A stretch of DNA of 64,000 bases from Candidatus Eiseniibacteriota bacterium (GCA_029262235.1 JAJCZU010000002.1:310001-374000); one strand, 5' to 3'; shown: positions 1,199-57,339, counted from the first letter of the stretch. Numbers and translations are program-made. The notes: a model not told the origin generated them from the letters alone.

Positions 1199-2638
1199 AT
1201 GAATGTAAACGCAACTCTGAAAGCGCTCGGCGCGCTTCTGCTCTTCCTCGGGTTCATGCTGCTGACGCCGCTCCCGTTCTCCCTGTATTTCAAAGATGGT
1301 GCGGCCTACTCGTTTCTCCTCTCGGCAGTGGCCGCATTCGCCGCGGGCGCCGGGCTTTACTTCGCGATCCCGGGACCGATTCGCCTCAGCCATCGCGAAG
1401 GGTTCGCGATCGTTTCTCTCGGCTGGGTCGCGTTTGCCGTTTTCGGATCGCTCCCGTTCATGCTTTCCGGCGAGATCCCGCACCCGGTGGACGCGTTCTT
1501 CGAAGCGATGTCGGGCATCTCTACGACCGGCGCTACGGTGATCACGAACCTCGAACCCATCGCGAAGAGTATTCTCTTCTGGCGGGCCACGCTTCACTGG
1601 ATGGGGGGGATGGGGATCATCGTGCTTACGATTGCGGTGCTCCCGTTCCTGGGTGTCGGGGGGATGCAGCTCTTTCAGGCCGAAGTGCCGGGACCGACCG
1701 CCGATCGCCTGAGCCCGCGTATCCAGGACACCGCGAAGCTTCTCTGGGGCGTCTACTTCATATTCACGCTGGCCGAACTCCTGCTTCTGATGCTCGGGGG
1801 GATGTCGTTTTTCGAAGCCATCTGTCATGCGTTCGCCACGATGGCGACAGGCGGCTTTTCAACCGAGAACGCGAGCCTCGGCGGCTTCGACAGCGCGTAT
1901 CTGCAGTTCATCGTTGTCCTTTTCATGTTCCTCGCGGGGATCAACTTTTCGCTGCACTTCTATGCGCTGCGGGGCGCGGTCGGCAACTACTGGAAGAGTT
2001 CGGAGCTCAAGTTCTATCTCACGATCGTCGGCGCTTCGTTCGTCGTCGTGTTTCTCGGGAACGTGGCCGCCTACGAGTCGCATTTCCGAAACGCGCTCGA
2101 CTCGGCATTTCAGGTCATCGCGATCATTACGACAACGGGGTTCGTGACCGCCGACTATGAACTCTGGCCCGTGCTCAGCCAGTACGTACTCGTGTTTCTG
2201 ATGCTGCTCGGCGGCTGCGCGGGCTCTACCGCGGGGGGGATGAAGTGCGTCCGGCTGCTCCTTCTCATGAAGCACGCCTACCATCAGATCTTCCTGAACA
2301 TTCACCCGCGCGGCGTCCGCAACCTCAAGATCGATCACAAGACCGTGCCGAACGAAGTCATTCAGGGCGTGCTCGGATTCTTTGCGCTCTACATCGGGAT
2401 TTTCGTCGGTGGATCGATGGTCATGGCCTTTCTCGGACTCGACTTCATGACAGCCGCCGGTTCCGTGATCGCGTGTCTCGGGAACGTCGGGCCGGGGCTC
2501 GGCGAGGTAGGGCCGACCGACAACTTCGCACAGATTCCTGCTCTCGGAAAGCTCGTGCTGGCGGGGCTCATGCTGCTCGGTCGTCTCGAGATCTTCACGC
2601 TGATCGTGCTCGCTTTTCCGTCGTTCTGGAAGCGCTGA
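1199..2638 (+). CDS. trkH: TrkH potassium channel subunit
   Basis: Inner-membrane potassium-translocating subunit of the Trk system, 479 residues, normal for the family. The four pore loops are visible in order: STTGATV (about residue 105), MATGGFST (about 213), TTTGFVTAD (about 310) and CLGNVGPG (about 425). Each carries the selectivity-filter glycine. Multiple hydrophobic helices lie between them. It follows trkA by 7 bp and is regulated by TrkA binding nucleotide. No separate promoter is evident. Confidence 0.96.
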   Translation: MNVNATLKALGALLLFLGFMLLTPLPFSLYFKDGAAYSFLLSAVAAFAAGAGLYFAIPGPIRLSHREGFAIVSLGWVAFAVFGSLPFMLSGEIPHPVDAFFEAMSGISTTGATVITNLEPIAKSILFWRATLHWMGGMGIIVLTIAVLPFLGVGGMQLFQAEVPGPTADRLSPRIQDTAKLLWGVYFIFTLAELLLLMLGGMSFFEAICHAFATMATGGFSTENASLGGFDSAYLQFIVVLFMFLAGINFSLHFYALRGAVGNYWKSSELKFYLTIVGASFVVVFLGNVAAYESHFRNALDSAFQVIAIITTTGFVTADYELWPVLSQYVLVFLMLLGGCAGSTAGGMKCVRLLLLMKHAYHQIFLNIHPRGVRNLKIDHKTVPNEVIQGVLGFFALYIGIFVGGSMVMAFLGLDFMTAAGSVIACLGNVGPGLGEVGPTDNFAQIPALGKLVLAGLMLLGRLEIFTLIVLAFPSFWKR

Positions 2639-2745
2639 GAGACCGAAGCCGCGCCCTGTTCCGCCATTTTTCGTTGCGCGGACGGCCCTTATCTCGCACA
2701 CTGGAACAGGAAATATCCAGTAACTCCAACTGCCGAAAGAGATCC

Positions 2746-4659
2746 ATGGGCGAACAGGACGTAAAGTCCGCCGGCGGACACGAGGCACGACGCGCCTTCA
2801 TGAAGGCGCTTCTGAACGATCTGCGCGCTTTCGAGCACATGCTCGAGGCCGGCATGATCGAGTCCGGCGTGCGCCGGATCGGAGCCGAGCAGGAGATGTT
2901 CCTCGTGGACTCCGCCTGGCAGCCGTCCGCCTCCGCCGTCCAGATTCTCGAAGCGATGGGCGATCCCCATTTCACGACGGAACTCGCGCAGTTCAACCTG
3001 GAGTTCAACCTCGACCCGCTCGTGTTCGGCGGCGATTGTCTGAGCCGCATGGAAACGCAACTGAACGCGCTGCTCGACAAAGTACGGGCGGCGGCATCGA
3101 ACCTCGGAACGCAGATCGTTCTCGCGGGCATTCTGCCGACGCTGCGCCAGTCGCACCTCGGCATCGAGAACATGACGCCGAACCCCCGATATTACGCGCT
3201 GAACGATGCCCTTACTTCGCTCCGCGGTTCGGACTACGATCTGCGCATCAAGGGCGCGGATGAAATCCTCGTACGCCACAACTCGGTCATGTACGAAGCG
3301 TGCAACACGAGCTTTCAGGTCCACTTTCAAACGGGCCCGGACGAGTTCGCGAAGCTTTATAATGTAGCGCAGGCGGTCACGCCTCCCGTGATGGCGGCCG
3401 CCACGAACTCGCCGATCCTGTTCGGGCGCCGGCTCTGGAAGGAAACGCGGATCGCGCTCTTCCAGCAGGCCGTCGACACGCGCAGCAGCGGCAGCCACGC
3501 GCAGGAGCGGGAAGCGCGCGTTACGTTCGGGCGTCGCTGGCTCGACGAATCGGTGCTCGAAATCTTCCGCGAGGATATTGCGCGGTTCCGCGTCGTGCTG
3601 AGTTCGGATCAGTCGGACGATCCGTTTGCGGATCTGGCCAAAGGCATTGCTCCGCAGCTCCGGGCGCTCCGGCTTCACAACGGCACCGTTTATCGCTGGA
3701 ACCGCCCCTGTTACGGCATTCTCGACGGCGTTCCCCATATCCGGATCGAAAACCGCGTTCTCCCTGCCGGGCCGAGCATCCTCGACGAAGTCGCGAACGC
3801 CGCGTTCTGGTTCGGGCTGATGTCGGGAGTTTCGGACGAGTATCCCGATATTGCGAAGGTCCTCGATTTCGACGACGTGCGGAGCGATTTCACCGCCGCC
3901 GCCCGGCTCGGGCTCGACGCCCAGCTTTCGTGGGTCGAGAAGAAGTCGGTCCCTGCCGAAGAACTGATCTGCAAAGTCTTTCTGCCGCTCTCGCGTGAAG
4001 GTCTCAAGTCGCGCGGGATCGATTCGAGTTCGATCGACCGCTATCTGGGTGTGATCGAGGAACGAGTGGACGCCAAGAAAACCGGGGCTCACTGGACCAT
4101 GGGGTCGCTTTCCGCTCTCAAGGGATCACTCGGCGACCGCCTCACGGCGATTACGGCATCGATGGTGCGGAACCAGAAAGAGGGGACGCCGGTTGCCCAG
4201 TGGAAGCCGGCCTGCTTCGAAGACAGCGGCGCCTGGCGCCATAACTTCCTGCGGGTCGAACAGCTCATGCGGACCGACATCTTCACCGTGAACGAGGAAG
4301 AGATCGTGGATCTGGTCGCGAACCTGATGGACTGGGAAAAGATTCGCCACGTGCCTGTCGAAGACAATCAGAACCGGCTCGTGGGGCTCGTGTCCCATCG
4401 TTCCCTGCTTCGTTACCTTGCCAGCGAGCGACGTTCGAAGGACGAGTCGGTGCCGGTGCGCGAGATCATGCAGAAGAACCCGATCACCACCAGTCCCGAC
4501 GCCAGTACTCTCGAGGCCATGGAAGTCATGCGCCGTGCCCGGATCGGTTGCCTGCCCGTTGTGCGGGAGGGCCATCTCGTCGGACTTCTGACCGAGCGCG
4601 ACTTCATGGAGATCGCGGGTCAGCTGATCGAAGAGAAGCTGCGGGAAAGCAGCGGATAG
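2746..4659 (+). CDS. Glutamate-cysteine ligase (GCS2)-like protein with C-terminal CBS pair
   Basis: 637 residues. Residues about 15-490 look like a GCS2-type ATP-dependent carboxylate-amine ligase: an RRIGAEQEMFLVD segment near residue 45, LEFNLDP near 88, and RIENRVLPAGP near 335. Residues about 505-630 form two CBS domains (LMRTDIFTV and IMQKNPITTSPDASTLEAM), which usually sense adenine nucleotides. The family joins an amino acid to a glutamate carboxylate; the substrate here is unknown. The ATG at 2746 is chosen because it follows an AGAG element and starts the conserved region; a longer frame from 2245 would run inside trkH. An AstE/AspA-like gene follows after 11 bp. Confidence 0.8.
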   Translation: MGEQDVKSAGGHEARRAFMKALLNDLRAFEHMLEAGMIESGVRRIGAEQEMFLVDSAWQPSASAVQILEAMGDPHFTTELAQFNLEFNLDPLVFGGDCLSRMETQLNALLDKVRAAASNLGTQIVLAGILPTLRQSHLGIENMTPNPRYYALNDALTSLRGSDYDLRIKGADEILVRHNSVMYEACNTSFQVHFQTGPDEFAKLYNVAQAVTPPVMAAATNSPILFGRRLWKETRIALFQQAVDTRSSGSHAQEREARVTFGRRWLDESVLEIFREDIARFRVVLSSDQSDDPFADLAKGIAPQLRALRLHNGTVYRWNRPCYGILDGVPHIRIENRVLPAGPSILDEVANAAFWFGLMSGVSDEYPDIAKVLDFDDVRSDFTAAARLGLDAQLSWVEKKSVPAEELICKVFLPLSREGLKSRGIDSSSIDRYLGVIEERVDAKKTGAHWTMGSLSALKGSLGDRLTAITASMVRNQKEGTPVAQWKPACFEDSGAWRHNFLRVEQLMRTDIFTVNEEEIVDLVANLMDWEKIRHVPVEDNQNRLVGLVSHRSLLRYLASERRSKDESVPVREIMQKNPITTSPDASTLEAMEVMRRARIGCLPVVREGHLVGLLTERDFMEIAGQLIEEKLRESSG

Positions 4660-4670
4660 ACCAACACATC

Positions 4671-5834
4671 ATGGGCGAACGTATCATCGGCAGCTACCAC
4701 ACCGGGCTTCCCGGGCGCACATTTCTGGGCGTGGGAGGACTTCACGGGAACGAACCCGCGGGAGGCCTTGCGCTCAGCCGCGTAATCAACACACTCCGCG
4801 AACAATCGATACCCGTGCGCGGTCGCATCGTCGCGCTTTCGGGACACCTGGAAGCGCAGGCGCGCCACGTGCGTTTCATCGATGAAGATCTGAACAGGCT
4901 GTGGACGCCGGAGCGCGTGGCGCGCATCGTCGCCGGCGAGATCAGGACCGCGGAGGAACGGGAAGCGAGCGAACTCCTTGCTGCGTTCGAAACCGTGTTC
5001 GACGAAGCCGACGACGAAGTCATCTTCATGGATCTGCACACGACGTCCGCCGACGGGGACCCGTTCACTTTCGTAGGCGACACGCTTCGCAATCGCGAGC
5101 TCGCGCGCGACTTTCCCGTGCCCCTCATTTTCGGCCTCGAAGAGCAGCTCGACGGCGGGCTCACCGAATACCTCGGCAATCGCGGCTGCCGCACGATCGG
5201 ATTCGAAGGCGGGCAGCACGACGACCCTGCTGCGGTCGAATACAACGAAGCCGCGATCTGGATCGTGCTGACGACCGCCGGCATCGTTTCACGCGACCGC
5301 GTACCGCGCTATCAGGAGCTCGTGAGCAAACTGCGCGGCGCGACCGAGGGAAAGCCGTCGGTTCTCGAAATTCGTTATCGCTACCCGATTCACGTGCGCG
5401 AAGATTTCGAAATGCTGCCCGGATTTCGCAATTTCCAGCGCGTGAAACGGGATCAGCTCCTTGCGCGCGATCAAGGGTCGGAGGTGCGCGCCGAAGAGAC
5501 CGGCCGGATTCTGCTGCCGCTCTATCAGGCGCTCGGTACGGACGGCTTCTTCATCTCGCGCCCGTTCAACGCTTTCTGGCTCAGCGTCTCGGCCATGCTT
5601 CGCAAACTCCACTTCGACCGATGGGTCGTCCGCTTTCCCGGAGTCGGTCCCGAACCGGACTCGAATTACGTGCGCGTCGACCCGAGTGTCGCGCGCTGGT
5701 ACGTGATCGAAATCTTTCATCTGCTCGGCTTTCGCAAACATCGCCCGCGTGACGGCGTTCTGATCCTGTCGCGTCGCAAGTACGATCTGGAGGCGCCGTC
5801 GCGCGTCGAACCGCTGACGGGGGACATGCACTGA
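4671..5834 (+). CDS. Succinylglutamate desuccinylase/aspartoacylase-family zinc hydrolase
   Basis: 387 residues, cytoplasmic. Zinc-binding signatures of the M14-like AstE/AspA family are present: GLHGNEPAGG (His25, Glu28) and DLHTTS (His123). The family cleaves N-acyl or amide bonds of glutamate or aspartate derivatives. It has about 60-100 extra C-terminal residues compared with AstE, including an Arg/Lys-rich end (FRKHRPRDG). It sits between a GCS2-like ligase and a bacilliredoxin and overlaps the latter by one base (TGATG), so the three are probably one operon. The natural substrate cannot be read from sequence. Confidence 0.8.
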   Translation: MGERIIGSYHTGLPGRTFLGVGGLHGNEPAGGLALSRVINTLREQSIPVRGRIVALSGHLEAQARHVRFIDEDLNRLWTPERVARIVAGEIRTAEEREASELLAAFETVFDEADDEVIFMDLHTTSADGDPFTFVGDTLRNRELARDFPVPLIFGLEEQLDGGLTEYLGNRGCRTIGFEGGQHDDPAAVEYNEAAIWIVLTTAGIVSRDRVPRYQELVSKLRGATEGKPSVLEIRYRYPIHVREDFEMLPGFRNFQRVKRDQLLARDQGSEVRAEETGRILLPLYQALGTDGFFISRPFNAFWLSVSAMLRKLHFDRWVVRFPGVGPEPDSNYVRVDPSVARWYVIEIFHLLGFRKHRPRDGVLILSRRKYDLEAPSRVEPLTGDMH

Positions 5835-53775: not shown

Positions 53776-54459
53776 ATGGACTCATTGAATACTTTAATTG
53801 TCGGTGTTGGCGGCTCACCAGGTTGGCTCGTAGTAGCGCATCATGTGAGCACCATTGTAGTCGCGATTGCGGCTCTTGTCGGGCTACTCTCTCTAGTATT
53901 TGCACAACGGGAGATGGTGATCCGCTCACGGAGAGAGTCTGTCATTCTTGCTGCCGAGATTTGTGAACGTTGGGCCGATCGGCTAATCGAGGAGTGTGGG
54001 AACAACCTGCTCGACTTGGGGCGGAAGATCAAGATTCAGGACTGGGGATTGAGTAATCACCACTTCCGCCCTGGATCACTAGTGCAGGAATCAGATGCGA
54101 GCGAATGGATCAAGCAGGTTCATGAAACCAACAGTTTGAATGAAGTTGCTCGAGTTGCCAACCGGCTTGAAGGTTTTGCAGTCTATTTCACTAGCGGTGC
54201 TGCGGATGAAGAGATAGCATTTTCTTCGATGGGCCCACTGTTTTGTGGTTGGATTCGAAACCTCTCTCCCTTCCTTGTCTTGGCACGGAGCCAATCCAAG
54301 GAAACACTAACATCGGGCAGCTATGAGAGTGTCGTACGTCTATATGACTTGTGGGCAAGACGTATGACCAAGTCCCAGTTGGAAGAAGCCGCCTCTCGTA
54401 CAGGGGCAGAGCTGGAAGCCTTGGGCGATGTGTCAGCAATCAAACCGATTGGAACATGA
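53776..54459 (+). CDS. Hypothetical membrane-anchored protein of the graspetide island
   Basis: 227 residues. One clear membrane helix at about 20-45 (VSTIVVAIAALVGLLSLVFA), then a cytoplasmic helical domain with charged residues and no known motif. The overall build resembles DUF4760-like proteins but this is not certain. Codon use is AT-richer than in flanking genes. 115 bp before the candidate RiPP precursor, so it may belong to that cluster or be an independent passenger. Confidence 0.6.
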   Translation: MDSLNTLIVGVGGSPGWLVVAHHVSTIVVAIAALVGLLSLVFAQREMVIRSRRESVILAAEICERWADRLIEECGNNLLDLGRKIKIQDWGLSNHHFRPGSLVQESDASEWIKQVHETNSLNEVARVANRLEGFAVYFTSGAADEEIAFSSMGPLFCGWIRNLSPFLVLARSQSKETLTSGSYESVVRLYDLWARRMTKSQLEEAASRTGAELEALGDVSAIKPIGT

Positions 54460-54534
54460 CGATTAATGAGCAATGTGAGCGAGGATGTAGAGAATAATCC
54501 TCCTCGGAGTATTTCGCCTATTTGATTTCATTGT

Positions 54535-54545
54535 TGCTCGGAGCA
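54535..54545. promoter_or_regulatory. Small inverted repeat upstream of the precursor gene, possible operator
   Basis: TGCTCGGAGCA: five base pairs around one base, 28 bases before the 54574 ATG. A second imperfect palindrome AATAATCCTCCTCGGAGTATT lies just upstream (about 54492-54512). Either may bind a regulator; no clear promoter hexamers were found. Confidence 0.3.
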
Positions 54546-54573
54546 GCACAACTCATCAAAGAAGGAGACCAGC

Positions 54574-54783
54574 ATGTTTGTTGAGCACCCACTGATCGAG
54601 CGAGCTCAGAGATACCGGCGTCGAGTTGTCGATCTGGCGCCCCATGGCTGTGCCTATGACGCCTCCGTCGGTGCGTGGCGAGTTATTAGTACGGGCGTGC
54701 TATGGGTTGATACGCCTGGCCGCGAAGGCCCTCACACTAAGAAGCAAGACATCGAGACAGGTGAGGATCAGAAAGGTGAGTGA
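54574..54783 (+). CDS. Candidate precursor peptide of an ATP-grasp-modified RiPP (graspetide)
   Basis: 69 residues. Strong AAGGAGA ribosome binding site 7 bases before ATG. N-terminal half is a basic, likely helical leader (HPLIERAQRYRRRVVDL), with AYDASVGAWRV near 32-42. The last 20 residues (GPHTKKQDIETGEDQKGE region) are rich in Thr, Lys, Glu and Asp, the side chains that graspetide ligases join as lactones or lactams. The ATP-grasp gene starts 6 bp after the stop, the usual precursor-maturase order. No similarity was confirmed by search, so this is a position- and composition-based call. Confidence 0.6.
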   Translation: MFVEHPLIERAQRYRRRVVDLAPHGCAYDASVGAWRVISTGVLWVDTPGREGPHTKKQDIETGEDQKGE

Positions 54784-54789
54784 CTAACA

Positions 54790-55776
54790 ATGCCCGCTAA
54801 GTCAGCGAGTCTCTACCCGCAGATTCTCTTGCTCGCAAGTCGCTACGACCTAACCTGCGATTATGTCGTTTCGCAGTTGATGCGCAAGTCGGTTCCCTAC
54901 CTCCGGATCAATACGGAGGATCTCCCCACCTCTACTGTAGAACTGGATCCTGTTCTAAGGCGACTTATGATCGAGTACGGCGGTAGGAGATACTATGTTA
55001 CTCCAGATAGCCTTCGATCCGTGTTTTTCAGGCGCCCCGTTTTCCTTCGCGACTATGGGGACGAACAGAGATCGCCCGCGGAGCGATTCTCACGACTTCA
55101 GTGGGCCGCGTTTATCCAGAACCTCATGCTCTTCGACGAGGCTTGTTGGCTTAACTCTCCCGCCGCCACATATCGAGCAGAGCATAAAGCCGTCCAACTC
55201 TCGGTAGCAGCCCAGTTGGGTTTCGCCGTTCCAGAAACGCGAGTGACGAATGCGCCACACTCGGAACTTCTGAGTACGGCGTGCAGCCGTGTGGCTCTCA
55301 AGGGACTAGACACCGTTCTCCTTCGGGACGATGGTCTTGAGATATTCGGGTTCACGACACTTGAGTCCTCTTCGGCTTTGGAACCCAGCGGTTGGAGATC
55401 GGCTCCAGGCATGATTCAGGCTGCCTTATCAAACAAGCTCGACATCCGAGTAACGGTCGTCGAGGATCGAGTTTTTGCTGCGAGTATTTCGGCGAATGGA
55501 CAGCCAATCGATGGAGATTGGCGAACACACAAGCTCGGTGCCCAGTTCTCCGCAATTGAACTACCAGAAGAGACAGCCCAGCGGTGTCGACAATTAGTCA
55601 AATCACTCGGCTTACTATTCGGCGGAATTGATCTCGCGCTATGTAACGATGAATACTACTTCCTAGAAGTGAATCCTACAGGTGAATGGGGCTGGCTTGT
55701 CGATGCGGCAGAGCTTCCTATAGACGCTGCCATTGCCAACACCCTTACCAAGGGAGATCGTTTGCATGTGGGCTGA
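54790..55776 (+). CDS. Graspetide-type ATP-grasp ligase (MvdC/MvdD/TgmB-like)
   Basis: 328 residues, typical for this family. N-terminal pre-ATP-grasp region (ILLLASRYDLTCDYVVSQL, LRINTEDLP, SVFFRRPVF), then ATP-binding Lys in VALKGLDTVLL, the family motif DIRVTVVEDRVFAASI followed by DWRTHKLG, and the metal-binding end FGGIDLALCNDEYYFLEVNPTGEWGWL (Glu293, Asn295). Such enzymes use ATP to form ester or amide links between Asp/Glu and Thr/Ser/Lys of a precursor peptide. Expected substrate is the 69-residue product encoded 6 bp upstream. Its stop overlaps the next gene by 11 bp. Confidence 0.85.
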   Translation: MPAKSASLYPQILLLASRYDLTCDYVVSQLMRKSVPYLRINTEDLPTSTVELDPVLRRLMIEYGGRRYYVTPDSLRSVFFRRPVFLRDYGDEQRSPAERFSRLQWAAFIQNLMLFDEACWLNSPAATYRAEHKAVQLSVAAQLGFAVPETRVTNAPHSELLSTACSRVALKGLDTVLLRDDGLEIFGFTTLESSSALEPSGWRSAPGMIQAALSNKLDIRVTVVEDRVFAASISANGQPIDGDWRTHKLGAQFSAIELPEETAQRCRQLVKSLGLLFGGIDLALCNDEYYFLEVNPTGEWGWLVDAAELPIDAAIANTLTKGDRLHVG

Positions 55777-56395
55777 ACTCCTGACATGGATTGATTCTGT
55801 GCTGTTGGGTTCAGTGTTCACCTTGTGCCGGGCGAACAGCACCGTTCAGAAGAAGATCGATCAGTGCCGCATAGAGCAGTTTGATAATGACGAGCGACTA
55901 AAGCACTCGAAACAAGTCGTTGATGCGCGGCTATCCGGATCGATCGAGCGTCTTGAGAGAATCGAAAATAAGGCCATGGGGACCCTCCTCGGTGTGGCTG
56001 TAGCGGTCGCCTTGCTTGGGGCAGCGACTGGCATCCTAGGCTCCGATGGAATGATTGCGAACGAACCTCTATGGCTTCGGATCGTTGCGGCTGCGCTCCT
56101 TCTCATTTCGATGACATTGCTGTTCGGCAGCGGATTCTTAGCCTTGGGGGCATACAAAGTCGGCCAAGTGTACCGCCCGACCATGTTTGACCAAGAGCCA
56201 CTTGCGGAGGAGGAACACGAGCGAAAGATGGTTCTGCTTTGCATTGAGCAGAACGACCGTGCGGCGACATTGCGATCCAATCGGCTTTCGGCTTCATTCT
56301 GTTGCCTCAGAAACGGTCTCGCAACGGTCTTGCTCCTGGGAGTATTCATCGTTATCGTTACCCTCGTGACGGGGGACACATGTAGACCTACTTAA
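55766..56395 (+). CDS. Hypothetical membrane protein of the graspetide island
   Basis: 209 residues. N-terminal polar coiled-coil stretch (about 30-75), then membrane helices at about 73-93, 103-133 and 184-206. No transporter or peptidase motif was recognised. The ATG at 55766 overlaps the ATP-grasp stop by 11 bp, so it is translated from the same mRNA and could be an export, immunity or membrane-tethering partner. Confidence 0.65.
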   Translation: MWAELLTWIDSVLLGSVFTLCRANSTVQKKIDQCRIEQFDNDERLKHSKQVVDARLSGSIERLERIENKAMGTLLGVAVAVALLGAATGILGSDGMIANEPLWLRIVAAALLLISMTLLFGSGFLALGAYKVGQVYRPTMFDQEPLAEEEHERKMVLLCIEQNDRAATLRSNRLSASFCCLRNGLATVLLLGVFIVIVTLVTGDTCRPT

Positions 56396-56463
56396 TAAAC
56401 TACTGAAGCCGTCGGTTTCCTTCGTCGTCAACACGCTTTCGGCAATGCACTAGGGGATCAAGC

Positions 56464-57339
56464 ATGCCCGAGCATCCACTTTCTTCGTATGATGAAATCC
56501 ACAAGCAGTTTGATCCGCATTTCTTTGTGGACTATGCGCTCTTCAGCGGTTCCTTGCGCCACTACATCGCAAAGTCGCTTGAGGACTTGTTGAAGGCTAA
56601 CATCAATGACTCTCATCGTAGGCTCTTCATTGTCGGCCTGTATCGTGAGGAGTACGCCGGATACGAGGATGTTGGCGCTATAGTTGCTTCACTTATTCGA
56701 TATCACAGAAAAGAGCTGACGTACCCGATAGAAGGAATGCTGCGGTACAAGCCCGATGCAGTCATCTTGGAGAAACTGTTTCGTCGCTACGACATAAAGT
56801 CCGCTGATGACCTGTATGTCGGTTTAGGCTTGGAGGAGTGGATTCCGACCAATTGGGGATCGGTTCATCCGCGTATCGATTGCGCTAAGGTCTTGCAGCG
56901 AATGTGCCGGTTTATCTTTCTAGACTGCCAAGCGAATCAGAAACGGTACGGGATAGACGCCTACAACAGAATCAAGCACGGACTAGCGTTCGTCCCCAAC
57001 GGCAACCGCTACCTGATCAGTCTTCCGAACGCGCCAGCTGTACTAGTCGCCAACCGTCAATCTCAATCAGATCCCTATGTGCTCCTCGGCCTTCCCATGG
57101 ATGATTCATCCTTGGCAGAGCGTGCAAGGCTCGTCGAGTTCATTCAGTCGACACTTCGTGCGCTTGTGTCATTTTATTTGATTGGTAACTACTCAGAGTT
57201 TCTTCGAGAGACTCGAGAGATCGTCCCCGCTTCCCGTATCTTTGACTTTCCATCGCTTGTGTCCGTGAGGGACTTTCTAGTTCAACTAACCGAAAATCCG
57301 GATTCTCCGCCAACAATGCCGCGACCCCGGGGGCTCTGA
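56464..57339 (+). CDS. Hypothetical protein with a KH-type helix motif, graspetide island
   Basis: 291 residues, no signal peptide. Helical, with alternating acidic and aromatic segments. YNRIKHGLAFVPNG near residues 161-174 resembles the N-x-x-K-H helix of some HEPN-like proteins, but the resemblance is short. AGGGGAT precedes the ATG. Same low-GC composition as the ATP-grasp gene and 68 bp downstream of the membrane protein. Function unknown. Confidence 0.6.
   Translation: MPEHPLSSYDEIHKQFDPHFFVDYALFSGSLRHYIAKSLEDLLKANINDSHRRLFIVGLYREEYAGYEDVGAIVASLIRYHRKELTYPIEGMLRYKPDAVILEKLFRRYDIKSADDLYVGLGLEEWIPTNWGSVHPRIDCAKVLQRMCRFIFLDCQANQKRYGIDAYNRIKHGLAFVPNGNRYLISLPNAPAVLVANRQSQSDPYVLLGLPMDDSSLAERARLVEFIQSTLRALVSFYLIGNYSEFLRETREIVPASRIFDFPSLVSVRDFLVQLTENPDSPPTMPRPRGL

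Follow-up and report, generated by a model that had tools for sequence, protein, structure and literature searches.

What is encoded by the run of AT-rich genes at positions 53,776 to 57,339 of a 64,000-nucleotide stretch of DNA from Candidatus Eiseniibacteriota bacterium (GCA_029262235.1, JAJCZU010000002.1:310001-374000; the whole stretch is called the window below)? At its centre lies what is almost certainly a three-gene module, composed of a precursor peptide gene, an ATP-grasp ligase gene and a membrane protein gene. The precursor gene (54574..54783, + strand) encodes 69 amino acids (aa), a leader followed at the extreme C terminus by the core peptide TKKQDIETGEDQKGE (54736..54780, +). 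The graspetide-type ATP-grasp ligase (54790..55776, +) has 328 aa and starts 6 bp after the precursor gene. It overlaps by 11 bp the gene for a 209-aa membrane protein (55766..56395, +) with cytosolic helices and then about three transmembrane segments. The start of the latter gene at ATG 55766 is backed by the closest relative (L012; loci are designated in this way throughout), and the open reading frame (ORF) listing also gives a TTG start at 55733. The chemistry of the module is very probably that of graspetides, i.e., ribosomally synthesised and post-translationally modified peptides (RiPPs) made by ATP-grasp ligases. On a narrow balance, we favour the view that it is a self-contained, horizontally moving RiPP module whose peptide acts in the cell with the membrane partner, most likely in phage defence.

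Scans of plasmids, genomes and viral sequences yielded 22 relatives, with hosts among the Proteobacteria, Gemmatimonadetes, Acidobacteria and Aminicenantes as well as alphaproteobacterial and other plasmids and two prophage contigs. In every intact relative (about 20 loci have intact flanks), the precursor gene comes first, then the ligase gene and then that of a membrane protein orthologue, the genes overlapping or lying a short distance apart; the sequence-only reading had pointed to a small gene upstream of the ligase, and the neighbourhood survey found it conserved in every relative. A DNA pattern for ETGEDQKG alone recovered one viral contig, a Mu-like prophage, in which a ligase (38% identity) and a membrane gene adjoin the core. 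Because the earlier scans had used the ligase as query, this recovery is a reciprocal test of gene linkage. For the viral contigs, a single-protein scan gave no match, and the alignment search and the core pattern found one prophage each. Some copies are damaged or incomplete: an IS66 element interrupts the ligase in Mesorhizobium (L009, 4747-7441), a short ligase frame is followed by an IS630 transposase on a Xenorhabdus plasmid (L027, 5192-6643), the membrane gene is annotated as two fragments in Martelella (L006, 4927-5611), and a contig end leaves only part of the membrane gene in L022.

Two further genes share the low-GC island and lie outside the conserved module. The first, a DUF4760 gene (53776..54459, +; PF15956, 28.4 bits), ends 114 bp before the precursor gene; no counterpart was found beside 20 relatives, save in L022, where a DUF4760 protein is encoded about 1.5 kb upstream of the cassette (3759-4313) and gives no tblastn alignment to that of the window. 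The second, encoding a 291-aa orphan (56464..57339, +), follows the membrane gene after 68 bp and has no family match and no homologue at the relatives or on plasmids. All-against-all comparison of flanking proteins showed no fourth gene common to the loci, except among near-copies of one locus. A cluster of four partners that includes the DUF4760 and 291-aa genes was therefore rejected, since both are unconserved beside the relatives. All five genes do lie at the positions that the sequence-only reading gave, as the ORF coordinates confirm, and the set does not consist of chance ORFs, because the 69-aa frame has 22 more relatives with synonymous changes at invariant core residues; its four-partner set, by contrast, shrinks to the precursor, ligase and membrane protein alone.

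The precursors themselves indicate what the ligase may work on. Every one of them ends in the consensus (T/S)KKxDxETGED(Q/L)KG(E/Q/Y)-stop. Across 22 precursors, the potential donors K56, K57, T62 and K67 and the potential acceptors D59, E61, E64 and D65 are invariant, and residue 55 is T or S; L040 supplies a 23rd precursor with the same core. Synonymous codons differ at each invariant core position, so that the constraint must act on the protein. Mean pairwise identity reaches 83% over the last 15 residues, but is 47% in the ligase, 33% in the leader and 26% in the membrane protein. The leader follows the pattern HxL...A...P..A.YD...G.W, and its conserved residues in an alignment with 20 orthologues are H5, L7, A11, P23, YD28-29, G33 and W35. 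The leader motif Phhx(1,2)h is not present in this alignment; it occurs in about half of known graspetide precursors and is not obligatory. In an AF2 model of the precursor, the core is disordered and the leader forms a weak beta hairpin of low confidence (26-29/34-37). The ligase is accordingly accompanied, as expected in a graspetide cluster, by an adjacent precursor with a conserved leader and a core with 4 invariant donors and 4 invariant acceptors. In addition, the near-fixed core sequence argues for a constant partner and not for a diversifying toxin.

Against NCBIfam models, the ligase scores 196 bits for TIGR04187 (TgmB type), 145 for MvdC, 109 for MvdD, 58 for grasp-with-spasm and 41 for the RimK family, in each case below the curated cut-off (350, 425, 475 and 143 bits for TIGR04187, MvdC, MvdD and the RimK family, respectively). 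The best phmmer matches in the PDB are AMdnB 7m4s (1.3e-29) and 5ig8, both full-length. Since every NCBIfam score is under its cut-off, while the best solved relatives are graspetide synthetases, the ligase is, by sequence, a member of the graspetide synthetase superfamily in none of the named families. A tree of the 19 ligases adjoining this core, with 12 other graspetide ligases as outgroups and RimK sequences left out, places the 19 in a single clade (support 100/100) on a stem of 1.41 changes per site. This clade is separate from the MvdC/MvdD, TgmB and thuringinin-like ligases, with the last nearest and weakly supported (87/95). Consequently, of the MvdC/MvdD/TgmB-type assignment made from the sequence alone, the graspetide part holds on profile scores, PDB relatives and the tree, and membership of those three families does not.

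A different activity would be that of a non-cyclising ligase, which adds amino acids in the manner of RimK or joins the peptide to another molecule to give a cofactor or tagged peptide. Pfam does put the ligase domain in the RimK ATP-grasp family, and an invariant core also occurs in RiPP-derived cofactors. We nevertheless consider this very improbable, and a RimK-type function is not favoured: the RimK score of 41 bits compares with 109-196 for the graspetide models, AMdnB is similar over its full length, the core is rich in matched donors and acceptors, and there is no oxidoreductase partner. All 19 ligases match TIGR04187/04185/04184 at <1e-10, and the RimK model reaches 1e-10 in 3 of them only. 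The profile comparison proposed along with the sequence-only reading accordingly groups the ligase with graspetide models and not with RimK. With the MvdC/MvdD and TgmB systems (fuscimiditide/graspimiditide type), the module shares the ATP-grasp fold, an EVNPTGEW-type active-site motif and a small upstream precursor. It differs from them in having no transporter, acetyltransferase, methyltransferase or PFFARFL leader, as well as in scoring under all three cut-offs. A microviridin-type precursor with PFFERFL in its leader and about twelve core repeats of the YPSD type was seen elsewhere, in genome G133 (L003, 35-1123).

In the pathway that we propose, the leader would present the C-terminal core to the ligase, which would join K56, K57, T62 and K67 to D59, E61, E64 and D65 via omega-amide and omega-ester bonds; the product would be a tightly knotted graspetide rich in Lys. 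The modified peptide would then stay inside the cell and act with or on the co-translated membrane protein. The product is most likely intracellular, because no protease or exporter is conserved with the module.

Where the product acts is also the point at which the nearest known systems have to be considered. The thuringinin-like loci (Lee groups 3/5/6; L010, L011, L031, L032, L036 and L037) have the same order of precursor, ligase and membrane protein, and their membrane proteins are distantly homologous to that of the window (hhalign Prob 85, E 6e-6). Their precursors carry several Thr/Glu/Asp-rich repeats, whereas here there is one Lys-rich, near-invariant C-terminal core and another leader. 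In the Makarova classification, the precursors of such loci make up cluster 13 and the membrane proteins cluster 18, of which L010 and L011 are putative members. In these six sister loci (L037 at 2522-3490), the repeat-core precursor and ligase are accompanied by a membrane protein with an ERxR...KA motif; sister cassettes occur on plasmids of Proteobacteria and also in the records of Leptospira phage LalZ_80412 and of an unverified phage scaffold. The partner set had been called unusual for having no transporter or acetyltransferase; indeed none is in the cassette, but distant homologues of the membrane protein adjoin thuringinin-like ligases, so that this partner is not wholly peculiar to the module.

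Known graspetides include protease inhibitors, and the peptide could be a secreted antimicrobial or protease inhibitor, with the ligase cyclising the core, a host protease and exporter releasing it and the membrane protein serving as exporter or immunity protein. The sister loci with their distant homologues speak for this; Makarova et al. 2022 noted that thuringinin loci have a cluster of uncharacterised membrane proteins of their own, for which they proposed a role in transport (PMC8939145). We regard secretion as unlikely, given that the cassette has no transporter, protease or GG motif, that a core so nearly invariant is not what one would expect of an antimicrobial subject to diversifying selection, and that three transmembrane helices without an ATPase would make a poor exporter.

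How has the module come to be in so many phyla? The GC content at third codon positions (GC3) is 0.50-0.61 in the five genes of the window's island, compared with 0.77-0.87 for the genes next upstream and 0.66-0.81 for those downstream (mean GC of the 64-kb window, 0.617), which bears out the AT-richer island first noted from the sequence. No ligase relative was found in six other genomes of the source family and phylum, making transfer likely. Together with the GC3 contrast and a mobile block elsewhere, this supports the suggested transfer of the island well. No convincing flanking repeats or tRNA were found at the island, and the genes flanking it are absent from the sister genomes, so there is no empty site to compare. 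The mobile block is common to Marinomonas (L019) and a Piscirickettsiaceae metagenome-assembled genome (MAG; L023), which belong to different orders. It is exactly 1832 bp long, 96.5% identical and bounded 32 bp before the precursor and 25 bp past the membrane gene, with unrelated flanks. The block starts next to GTTA and ends in ACATAACAAG, after which come differing attC-like hairpins ending GGCGTTA (z about -4 for the DNA hairpins at the block end). Among 17 loci, attC-like matches occurred in L019 and L023 only, both at the cassette end. Judged from attC-like sites and homology borders alone, the block looks like an integron gene cassette with all three genes. Attachment sites of this kind at 5074-5183 and 7574-7691 of L023 and 7574-7672 of L019, plus further GGCGTTATAG ends, suggest that Marinomonas sp. 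SBI8L and the Piscirickettsiaceae (Methylophagaceae) MAG have integron arrays in their chromosomes. L007 and L018 have little beyond the cassette in common, and E. coli genomes gave no DNA match to the Lelliottia cassette.

A small, self-sufficient and mobile unit on plasmids, in prophages and at an integron-like site might also be an addiction module, in which the modified peptide neutralises a toxic membrane protein, or vice versa, so that plasmids, prophages and integron arrays are stably maintained. We think this improbable. Three genes with an ATP-consuming ligase are heavy for such a purpose, and decayed copies survive, as in L009 and L027, where ligases are cut short beside insertion sequence (IS) elements, and in L006 with its membrane gene in two fragments. 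The addiction and defence readings overlap if abortive infection is the outcome.

For phage defence, the modified peptide would be the regulator or ligand of the membrane protein, and the latter would act as the effector, through depolarisation, lysis or arrest. Hydropathy peaks at about 69-97, 100-130 and 176-207 indicate about three membrane segments, and an AF2 model is helical and confident (pLDDT 86). K69 is invariant among orthologues, and R62 and R182/G184 are nearly so. Family models recognised neither this protein nor the precursor: Pfam has no family for the membrane protein, and Pfam, NCBIfam, PADLOC and PHROG gave no match for the precursor. The membrane protein resembles Pycsar PycTM/SLATT-type systems in its small cassette, helical membrane protein, K-containing motif before the first transmembrane helix and defence-island setting, and differs in that no PycTM profile matches it and a nucleotide cyclase is absent (for SLATT families, the comparison was by Pfam scan alone).

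Support for a defence role comes from the genomic setting. Within about 6 kb of the cassette, PADLOC or RefSeq annotation gives Thoeris ThsA+ThsB (L017), AbiD (L024), type I restriction (L012), methyltransferase+Vsr (L014), Dsr1-like proteins (SIR2/Dsr1; L008 and L015), PD-Lambda-4_A (L016), a PD-T4-6-like kinase (L018; kinases are generic), cll (L020), and AbiE and ABC-3C (L005/L006). The module is prophage cargo in L025 and L040, and a phage lysozyme adjoins it in L013. In Lelliottia (L020, 9442-12302), the setting is P4-satellite-like, and a RES-domain gene, a T4-beta-like protein and a cll homologue adjoin the cassette. In nine control regions of 13 kb each from the same contigs, there were no matches beyond two to mad3 and one to a UvrD-type helicase. 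Counting specific defence genes only, 5-6 of 9 loci compared with 0 of 9 controls had such neighbours (Fisher test, p = 0.03-0.009); L005/6, L008, L012 and L014 are further loci with defence neighbours outside the nine tested. The association between module and defence genes is suggestive and falls short of proof. Neither this setting, with its mobile elements, nor the near-invariant core had been foreseen in the sequence-only reading.

Several observations weigh against a defence role. The Fisher test is not significant (p = 0.15-0.33) once the helicase and mad3 hits of the controls enter the count as two loci. No PADLOC model matches the module proteins at E up to 10, and the island in the window is free of recognised defence genes. 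The model of the membrane protein has no significant structure match in the PDB or BFVD and no known effector fold. Homology to PycTM was examined and rejected: the register is suggestive and the similarity not significant, with no PF18967 match and an hhalign probability of 5% to one PycTM. Defence islands, moreover, also gather plasmid-maintenance and bacteriocin genes. Taking both sides together, we hold phage defence as an evenly balanced hypothesis.

Most of what is known of graspetides concerns protease inhibitors or orphan clusters, and for the most part it is not known what they do in nature. In the papers searched, we found none joining graspetides with anti-phage defence, and the core sequence was not found in print, the motif figures and supplements of graspetide surveys being outside the coverage. 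Surveys count 24 earlier and 19 new graspetide groups (PMC13097080), and the sequence family of the module may already bear a graspetide group number. A metatranscriptome study connects RiPPs in general with phage (PMC11118758), and integrons are reported reservoirs of anti-phage cassettes, with anti-phage activity in 16 of 179 V. cholerae integron cassettes (review, PMC12409362).

The core that stays fixed from one phylum to another, the dedicated membrane partner and the defence-island or prophage address suggest an intracellular role for this small (1.8 kb) module. We put forward tentatively, as something short of probable, that it may be the first graspetide-based intracellular immune system, a phylum-crossing unit that also has an integron-cassette form and in which a cross-linked peptide with the nearly invariant (T/S)KKxDxETGEDQKG core, the product of its own ATP-grasp ligase, would control a membrane effector and protect bacteria and prophage carriers. 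If true, RiPP chemistry and anti-phage immunity would be joined, and peptide engineering would gain a small scaffold that is rich in Lys and has several macrocycles.

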